From NCBI GenBank assembly GCA_027011045.1, contig JALVAT010000006.1, positions 1-40,539 of the forward strand: a stretch of 40,539 nt of DNA. Direction: 5' to 3'. Below, in pieces: positions 17,453-26,895 of this stretch. This DNA comes from Microcaldota archaeon. GTDB lineage: Archaea > Iainarchaeota > Iainarchaeia > JAADDC01. Both the position numbers and the translations under genes were made by a program. The first letter of the stretch is position 1, and each line of letters begins with the position of its first letter. The notes below the pieces were generated by a model. That model saw only the letters and a list, made by a program, of their open reading frames with translations. It did no database searches and was not told the DNA's origin.

Positions 17453-17456
17453 GTGC

Positions 17457-17550
17457 GGCGTGTAGTGCGGGGCGAGGCTCCGAACATGGGGCTCCCGCCC
17501 CTATTACCCCGTAGGGGGTGTCTCCGACACCCTGCTGTCAATTGTATAGT
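17457..17550. repeat. Copy 1 of 94/95-bp repeat flanking the 3' end of a tRNA-Leu gene
   Basis: Identical by eye to 26352-26446 except a one-G length difference; contains perfect hairpin GGGTGTC-TCC-GACACCC (17516-17532). Confidence 0.9.
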
Positions 17551-17633
17551 GCGGGGGCGGGGATTCGAACCCCGGAAGGCACTAAGCCAGCGGATCTTGA
17601 GTCCGCCCCCTTTGGCCGCTCGGGCACCCCCGC
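17551..17633 (-). tRNA. tRNA-Leu(CAA)
   Basis: Minus strand GCGGGGGTGCCCGAGCGGCCAAAGGGGGCGGACTCAAGATCCGC...GGGGTTCGAATCCCCGCCCCCGC; class II tRNA with variable arm; anticodon loop CTCAAGA. Confidence 0.93.
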
Positions 17634-17819
17634 AGCCGATCCTCGGCTGGCGCGGAGCTAACTGCCTGTCGCAGACAGGCAGTTATGCGCTTGTACGCGT
17701 GACTGAAGCCCCGCAACCGTATCCCGGTTGACGTGACCGTGCATGGGGCTTTCAGCCCCATACTCAACCGGATGTGTGGTCGGTTGCTTGCAACCGGCCT
17801 CGCGGACCCACTGTCCGCG
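17633..17819. repeat. Hairpin mosaic upstream (5' side) of tRNA-Leu(CAA)
   Basis: Serial inverted repeats: CAGCCGA-TCC-TCGGCTG 17633-17649; AACTGCCTGTC-GCA-GACAGGCAGTT 17660-17684; CAACCG/CGGTTG 17714-17730; ATGGGGCT-TTC-AGCCCCAT 17743-17761 inside CCGGTTGA/TCAACCGG 17724-17771; GGTCGGTTGC-TT-GCAACCGGCC 17778-17799; CGCGGAC/GTCCGCG 17801-17819. Confidence 0.88.
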
Positions 17820-17865
17820 TCGGCCCTGGGTTTACCTGCGCAGCGTAGTTAATTTTTCAGGGAAG

Positions 17866-25125: not shown

Positions 25126-25147
25126 CTGGGCACACCCTATTGTATTT

Positions 25148-25422
25148 GGACGGGCAGGCCGGGGGGTTAGCGGTCCCCTGTAACCGGAAATCCGCTTACG
25201 CCGGGGCCATACCCCCGGGAAGGGCGTTGGGATCCCTCCTCCGCGGGGGCATTGCCCGTAGAAGGCCTGTCCCGCCGGGCGGTCGGGTTCGGGTGAATCG
25301 GCCAGGCCCGGAAGGGAGCAACCGTAGCCCGGCCCGGTCGTGCTGGCGGGGTAGCAGGCTGGAGGGCCGTGTCCCCGTTGGTAGGGGGTGCATCCCGGCG
25401 TTCGACCCGGGGGCGCCCGTCC
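25148..25422 (+). ncRNA. archaeal signal recognition particle (7S) RNA
   Basis: 5' GGACGGGC pairs with 3' GCCCGTCC; GGCCGGGGGGTTAGCGGTCCCCTGTAACCGGAAATCCGC...GCCGGGGCC; helix 8 GTGAATCGGCCAGGCCCGGAAGGGAGCAACCGTAGCCC with GGAA tetraloop. Confidence 0.93.
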
Positions 25423-25439
25423 GCTCATGGTGATTCCCC

Positions 25440-26228: not shown

Positions 26229-26351
26229 CTTGACATTTTCTCCTTCTTCGTGTCCCCTGATTTCTTTTATTCTGACACAATGCCCGACAAGCGTGCCCGG
26301 CCCCCTCACCGCCTCTCTTGTATTCCTTAGAGAAGTTGACGTGGTAGTGGG

Positions 26352-26446
26352 GGCGTGTAGTGCGGGGGCGAGGCTCCGAACATGGGGCTCCCGCCCCTAT
26401 TACCCCGTAGGGGGTGTCTCCGACACCCTGCTGTCAATTGTATAGT
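26352..26446. repeat. Copy 2 of 94/95-bp repeat flanking the 3' end of a tRNA-Leu gene
   Basis: Matches 17457-17550 apart from one G; hairpin GGGTGTC-TCC-GACACCC at 26412-26428. Confidence 0.9.
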
Positions 26447-26529
26447 GCGGGGGCGGGGATTCGAACCCCGGAAGGCACTAAGCCACCGGATCCTAAGTCC
26501 GGCCCCTTTGGCCGCTCGGGCACCCCCGC
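26447..26529 (-). tRNA. tRNA-Leu(UAG)
   Basis: Minus strand GCGGGGGTGCCCGAGCGGCCAAAGGGGCCGGACTTAGGATCCGGTGGCTTAGTGCCTTCCGGGGTTCGAATCCCCGCCCCCGC; anticodon loop CTTAGGA. Confidence 0.93.
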
Positions 26530-26848
26530 AACCGTATCCCGGTTGACGTGACCGTGCATGGGGCTTGCAGCCCCATACCCAACCGGTTGTGCGTGCGGCC
26601 AAAGTGCCGCACCCGCCATCCCGGTTGACATCGCAAGCTTCGCTTGCGTGCACGCGAACGGAGTTCGCGATGCGTGACCGTACATGGGGCTTTCAGCCCC
26701 ATACTCAACCGGGTGTGCGTGCGGCTGAAGTGCCGCATCCGCGGCAGCGTCAACCGATGTAGCGGTTGCTCGGCTGACGCGGAGCTAACTGGGGATCTGC
26801 GATCCCCAATTATGCACCGGTTGTGTGGTCGGTTGCTTGCAACCGGCC
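26529..26848. repeat. Hairpin mosaic upstream (5' side) of tRNA-Leu(UAG)
   Basis: CAACCG/CGGTTG 26529-26545; ATGGGGCT-TGC-AGCCCCAT 26558-26576; GTGCGGC/GCCGCAC 26593-26612; CGCAAGC-TTC-GCTTGCG 26632-26648; CGCGAAC-GGA-GTTCGCG 26653-26669; ATGGGGCT-TTC-AGCCCCAT 26684-26702; TGCGGC/GCCGCA 26720-26737; CAACCG/CGGTTG 26751-26768; TGGGGATC-TGC-GATCCCCA 26790-26808; GGTCGGTTGC-TT-GCAACCGGCC 26827-26848. Confidence 0.88.
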
Positions 26849-26895
26849 TCGCGGACCCGCGGGCCGATGTGGCGGCCGCTCTGTTCACGGACCGC

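Follow-up and report, generated by a model that had tools for sequence, protein, structure and literature searches.

The tRNA-Leu(CAA) gene is separated from a divergent antiporter gene by a closely packed series of hairpins, which raises the question of what these hairpins are and how they came to lie at the edge of a tRNA gene. The window, that is, the whole stretch of DNA analysed, is 40,539 nt long and represents the entire contig C6 of an archaeal genome (G000; 0.74 Mb, 54 contigs, 92% complete). It was compared with four further members of the genus (G001 to G004) and one genome of the sister genus (G005). All of these are fragmented metagenome-assembled genomes, in which TATA boxes were assigned by a simple motif.

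Hairpin arrays at two tRNA-Leu genes

All five hairpins listed upstream of tRNA-Leu(CAA) in the earlier note are present and had been placed to within a base or two, module B being slightly longer than described (Table 1). The further claim of a hairpin vocabulary common to this array and the larger one at 26.5 kb agrees with BLAST. When folded on the tRNA strand, positions 17633-17850 yielded a predicted -110 kcal/mol compared with -83 ± 4.6 for shuffled sequences (z -5.8); the opposite strand gave a z of -5.3, with 0 of 200 shuffles as good. The stem of the terminal hairpin includes G1 of tRNA-Leu(CAA) itself. The hexamer GCGGGG immediately after the internal terminal hairpin is possibly a relic of a tRNA-Leu 5' end left by an earlier insertion, a doubtful reading of a weak, 6 nt resemblance. 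A scan of the window against Rfam returned the tRNAs and an archaeal SRP RNA gene (25147-25423; RF01857, 145.7 bits), with no array match above the gathering score.

Table 1. Features of the two tRNA-Leu loci in the window.
Feature	Position	Strand	Basis or remark
Duplicated tRNA 3'-end relic GTTCGGAGCCTCGCCCCGCACTACAC, T-loop to 3' end plus 6 nt	17460-17485	-	Read by eye; near-identical Leu(TAG) copy passed the score cut
3'-side hairpin insertion after tRNA-Leu(CAA), including GGGTGTC-GGA-GACACCC at 17516-17532	17486-17548	-	Fold z -2.5
tRNA-Leu(CAA), intact target	17549-17633	-	ARAGORN; Infernal 17550-17633, 52.7 bits
Whole 5' hairpin array (leader insertion), promoter-to-tRNA interval	17633-17829	-	Absent in G001 ortholog, different in G002 and G003
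Terminal hairpin CAGCCGAGGATCGGCTG, adjoining mature nt 1; 7-bp stem, GGA/TCC loop	17633-17649	-	Compensated variant CAACCGAGGATCGGTTG in G003 ortholog
Module B hairpin TAACTGCCTGTC-TGC-GACAGGCAGTTA, 12 bp, perfect	17659-17685	-	Paralog stems differ yet pair (GGGGATC...GATCCCC)
GCGGGG straight after internal terminal hairpin	17709-17714	-	6 nt only
Internal copy of the other terminal hairpin, CAACCGGGATACGGTTG	17714-17730	-	Also abuts Leu(TAG), Leu(GAG) and Leu(CAG) tRNAs
Nested D unit CCGGTTGA...ATGGGGCT...AGCCCCAT...TCAACCGG; 8-bp outer and 8-bp inner stem	17724-17771	-	
H2-slot hairpin GGCCGGTTGCAAGCAACCGACC between conserved GCGAG and CACACA	17778-17799	-	9 genome copies, one orientation relative to tRNA
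Array-start hairpin CGCGGACAGTGGGTCCGCG	17801-17819	-	
GCGCAGG, promoter-proximal leader start	17835-17841	-	Conserved in G001, G002 and G003
Candidate promoter AT box AAAAATTAAC (aaaaattaac)	17848-17857	-	Position matches AT boxes upstream of GCGCAGG in G001-G003
Second candidate TATA TTATAAAA	17866-17873	-	Position of AATAAAAAAC in G001 and G003
Leu(TAG) 3'-side insertion with T-loop/3'-end relic	26352-26444	-	99% identical to 17456-17549
tRNA-Leu(TAG), second target in window	26445-26529	-	ARAGORN
Larger 5' array, family shared with Leu(CAA) array	26530-26880	-	BLAST

A second insertion at tRNA-Leu(CAA), on its 3' side (17460-17548), was missing from the earlier list. The two tRNA-Leu loci (17455-17690 and 26344-26548) exhibit 94% identity over 205 nt, the 3' insertion included, and differ in their 5' arrays, as if a recent gene conversion had stopped at the 5' edge of the tRNA. 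Positions 26628-26680 of the larger array include a cruciform module of 44 nt (CATCGCGAACTCC...GCTTGCGATG, a stem that carries two hairpins), present inside some D units and missing from others; among its copies the loops are GGA and TCC, that is, in both orientations.

Pairing is retained while the sequence changes. For 22 distinct hairpins occupying the slot between GCGRG and CRCACA, a hand-picked set in which kinship among copies inflates the doubly changed counts, 93.9% of cells were paired and 41 were doubly changed, compared with 13.6 in shuffles. When the partner was shifted by one to three columns, pairing fell to 26-43%. The terminal hairpin is likewise compensated (CAGCCGA/TCGGCTG compared with CAACCGA/TCGGTTG). 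Judged by these substitution patterns, the comparisons show that it is the palindrome that matters, as DNA or as RNA. The stems may stay paired because the palindrome is needed for spreading or because it is selected in the RNA, and either explanation is uncertain.

Filled and empty sites across the genus

Arrays were counted by a rule requiring a distance of at least 80 nt to the TATA-like box and GC-rich sequence over the last 60 nt, which also catches some tandem tRNAs; it was passed by 26 of 46 tRNAs in G000, 19 of 45 in G001, 17 of 39 in G002, 20 of 36 in G003 and 3 of 26 in G004. In G005, of the sister genus, just three tRNAs passed, all in one tandem cluster. A search of G000 with the window region and another array located about twenty more array loci, essentially all of them beside a tRNA gene, with isotypes including Leu, Arg, Ala, Val, Pro, Lys, Glu and Ile among others. 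The sole match without a tRNA neighbour in view lies at the extreme end of contig C52, and no array copy away from a tRNA was found in 273 kb of the genome's own sequence sampled directly (37% of the genome). All nine copies of the GGTCGGTTGCTTGCAACCGGCC (E) hairpin are oriented alike relative to the tRNA. The ends of contigs C11, C33 and C52 fall inside or beside hairpin arrays; arrays thus terminate some contigs, probably by breaking assemblies, and the counts may be too low. Restriction to the genus was assessed by searching 55 relatives with one array, by inspecting G005 tRNA by tRNA and by a single scan of GTDB genomes for the exact pattern. tRNAs with introns (Met, Trp, Tyr and others; loci L095, L030, L121 and L208) also recur in the genus, mostly without hairpin arrays.

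The tRNAs that carry arrays are not the same ones from species to species, and the distance from the TATA-like box to the tRNA is mostly 28-57 nt without an array as opposed to 90-450 nt with one. Homology of the upstream flank reaches -9 in G002 as against -79 in G000 for Leu(TAA), -10 in G000 as against -146 in G001 for Thr(TGT) and -7 in G002 as against -113 in G000 for Glu(TTC). The cleanest example of an insertion is Thr(GGT), where sequence repeating nt 1-15 exactly has entered after nt 15-17 in both G001 and G002 and is absent in G000 and G003. The Leu(CAA) locus, next to the same antiporter gene, is free of a 5' array in G001 and holds different ones in G002 and G003. Since orthologous sites are empty or differently filled, the arrays are insertions, gained or replaced locus by locus, and the gain, loss and shuffling of modules proposed in the earlier note is strongly supported. 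That note had named related genomes devoid of structured sequence here as evidence against its account; G001 is literally such a genome, on the 5' side only, and is taken as the unfilled state. An assembly artefact was ruled out, because four genomes, each assembled separately, show this same architecture between flanks that are conserved.

Duplicated tRNA ends and the promoter side

Many of the insertions are bounded by a copy of part of the tRNA that they adjoin. Among 182 tRNAs, the promoter-proximal end of 22 non-tandem arrays is a copy of the tRNA's own sequence from nt 1 to nt 12-20, most often nt 15. Mismatched tRNA starts gave a chance rate of 1.3% per tRNA, or about 2 expected in 182. 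In 16 of the 19 cases with a measurable TATA box the fragment lies 22-64 nt from it, and the 5' fragments mark the original start of the tRNA relative to the TATA box. No clear excess of identity was found upstream of mature nt 1 that would extend the duplication into the leader. Most arrays of G000, the window's own 5' array included, have no convincing 5' fragment.

Downstream of tRNA genes, 21 arrays end in a copy of the stretch from the T-loop to the 3' end, 15-22 nt long and running 0-21 nt past the tRNA. Beside tRNA-Ser(CGA) a perfect 35-nt repeat flanks a 64-nt hairpin unit. The T-loop is altered in about half of the duplicated 3' pieces (TTCGNNATCC or GTTCNGAATCC type; for example L234, L238, L240, L247, L028 and L061), as if such pieces had been left unable to form a normal T-arm. 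A nested-tRNA model, in which 5' and 3' fragments together represent one outer acceptor stem, was rejected: two loci of G002 carry both fragments, compared with about 2.8 expected from 12 and 9 among 39.

On the promoter side, the earlier observation that no TATA box lies just upstream of tRNA-Leu(CAA) held, no promoter-like AT box being found in the interval from the array to the tRNA. The nearest candidate is indeed aaaaattaac, beyond the array; a second box (TTATAAAA), which had not been listed, lies further out and may instead serve the divergent antiporter gene. Both candidates were aligned by eye with the AT boxes of the orthologous loci. The AT boxes and GCGCAGG are conserved at all four orthologous loci, including that of G001, which has no 5' array, and this supports transcription from beyond the array. 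By this indirect evidence the old promoter would drive transcription through the 5' array, which would form a long, structured leader.

Loss of RNase P as a cause of unusual leaders was ruled out, since G000 and most relatives carry an archaeal RNase P RNA. In the predicted fold the acceptor stem of the tRNA still forms alongside the array. The first hairpin does abut the 5' end of the tRNA, as had been claimed, but it is not specific to 5' processing. Terminal hairpins of one kind adjoin nt 1 of the tRNA and, on the 3' side, T-loop fragments, for which reason we interpret them as the ends of an element rather than as signals for RNase P.

Candidate mechanisms and comparison with known systems

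The hairpin clusters look like an undescribed mobile or self-spreading sequence that spares its target gene. Our preferred interpretation, to which we assign a probability of roughly 70%, is that the arrays belong to a genus-specific family of short palindromic, nonautonomous elements, which enter a tRNA gene at its D- or T-loop edge and duplicate that end of the tRNA in doing so. Where fragments survive, a 5' insertion enters after nt 12-20 of the tRNA, in the D-loop, and repeats nt 1 to that point; a 3' insertion lies past the tRNA and finishes with a copied stretch running from the T-loop to the 3' end, sometimes extending up to 21 nt beyond. One complete tRNA is left, and repeated events would generate mosaics in which the youngest unit is presumably nearest the tRNA. 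A 5' array would be transcribed as a leader and removed by RNase P, which may be why it is tolerated. Joining might be performed by a trans-acting strand-transfer or template-switch activity drawn to the hairpin-like D- and T-arms, an uncertain step of this scheme.

Two findings sit awkwardly with elements of this kind. The fixed orientation is unusual for a DNA transposon, and the 5' duplications start at mature nt 1, unlike a generic target-site duplication. These atypical properties leave room for a processing-coupled or template-switch mechanism. Copies have just modules in common, so no single full-length element with fixed ends can be defined. It is possible, though we hold it only tentatively, that insertion is guided by tRNA structure or processing, with arrays attached to the ends of the mature tRNA by way of a processed-RNA intermediate or a novel integrase. 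The outer boundary would then be nt 1, the RNase P site, and the inner boundary would fall in the D- or T-loop; the tRNA would be restored at every event, and the insertions would be preserved next to it in order, like a fossil record.

Candidate mobilising enzymes were sought as four families in genomes 87-92% complete. No Y1 transposase (PF01797) was found across the five genomes of the genus. Reverse transcriptase (PF00078) was not detected in G000, G002 or G003 and was found in G001 only, Cas1 was absent from G000, G002, G003 and G004 with one in G001, and tyrosine integrase (PF00589) was not detected in G000, G002, G003 or G004. The reverse-transcriptase matches of G001 lie in two very long open frames of 1607 and 1876 aa (contigs C1 and C8; L268 and L269), seen in that genome only. 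Mobilisation by a resident enzyme of the REP/RAYT, retro, Cas1 or integrase type was rejected, such enzymes not being detected in G000; a viral origin was likewise set aside, the exact core pattern not being found in IMG/VR.

The arrays might also have arisen without any mobile element, through replication template switching and ectopic gene conversion by way of conserved D- and T-arm sequence, with stalling at hairpins. The breakpoints do fall in the D- and T-loops, regions in which tRNA genes resemble one another particularly closely, no transposase was found, orientation is fixed, and the 94% tract shared by Leu(CAA) and Leu(TAG) over 205 nt is a likely conversion tract. However, plain conversion from another isotype would import the wrong acceptor strand, whereas the copies match the recipient's own nt 1-15, and the inserted sequence is unrelated to the recipient locus. 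This explanation, while possible, is clearly the less probable beside insertion of a palindromic element.

A functional leader RNA, selected as a structured 5' leader that helps to fold, protect or time maturation of the tRNA precursor, with module turnover incidental, would account for the strong compensatory change in the H2 slot, for an orientation fixed with transcription and for the position of the array between promoter and tRNA, the predicted fold still allowing the acceptor stem to form. We consider it unlikely, given that hairpins of these types are also present 3' of tRNAs and that the array-carrying tRNAs differ between species. The array is missing at many orthologous loci, and almost wholly so in G004 and the sister genus, and is thus dispensable.

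Scars of att-site elements, integrated into tRNA genes by a tyrosine integrase and since deleted of their interiors, are more improbable again. Elements of that class leave partial tRNA copies (PMC9897764), and the 3' fragments from the T-loop onward resemble att sites. Against this, the inserts measure tens to a few hundred bases and draw on one common set of hairpins, duplications of the 5' end are as frequent as those of the 3' end, no integrase was found in G000, G002 or G003, and the exact core pattern is absent from viral contigs. Archaeal tRNA introns can occur in the D-loop, where the 5' insertions enter the tRNA gene, but reading fragment plus array as an intron or a split tRNA is barely credible, for the tRNA beyond the array is complete, no fragment is present in many arrays, and the identical exon-end and intron-end sequences argue against bulge-helix-bulge pairing.

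If the insertion of palindromic elements is correct, roughly half of the tRNA genes in some very small archaeal genomes have been struck by a target-duplicating palindromic family. The arrays would then provide a natural test bed for the tolerance of RNase P towards long structured leaders, a possible new mechanism of mobilisation in which no recognised transposase takes part, and a source of wrongly annotated tRNA fragments. A search confined to an open-access library returned no description of this tRNA-edge array pattern.

Among known systems, the REP/BIME and MITE elements of bacteria and archaea are dispersed, modular, nonautonomous hairpins. The present arrays differ in being confined to tRNA loci in one orientation, with long and variable duplications and no Y1 transposase detected. 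General intergenic dispersal of the REP type was not observed, arrays being tRNA-proximal in the 273-kb sample and in genome-wide matches, barring the one match at a contig end. Rickettsia palindromic elements insert into functional genes, RNA genes included, without killing them and become part of the product, whereas these arrays leave one intact tRNA. The repeated insertion of arrays close to an edge resembles the growth of CRISPR arrays. As with tyrosine-integrase elements (PMC9897764), a partial tRNA copy lies beside an intact one, but here in the form of short, gene-free hairpin arrays. Casposons are large, encode Cas1 and target the 3' end of tRNA genes with a target duplication of 14-15 bp (PMC6614799); here 3' duplications span 15-22 nt, and 5' duplications of 12-20 nt are equally frequent. 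Double-hairpin elements of mitochondria and the GC clusters of yeast are short GC-rich palindromes, merged and shuffled, and mobile without a known enzyme of their own; in some mitochondria palindromes lie near tRNA genes, and a target of 2 nt, AG, serves the GC42 cluster of yeast (PMC4478555, PMC5910586). Presence or absence at orthologous sites and a palindrome kept between copies are typical of this class and are both encountered here; unlike GC42, the arrays are found at tRNA gene edges only, with 12-22 nt of the tRNA end duplicated. Double-hairpin elements and GC clusters are therefore closest in character, and casposons and integrase islands closest in target and in duplication length.
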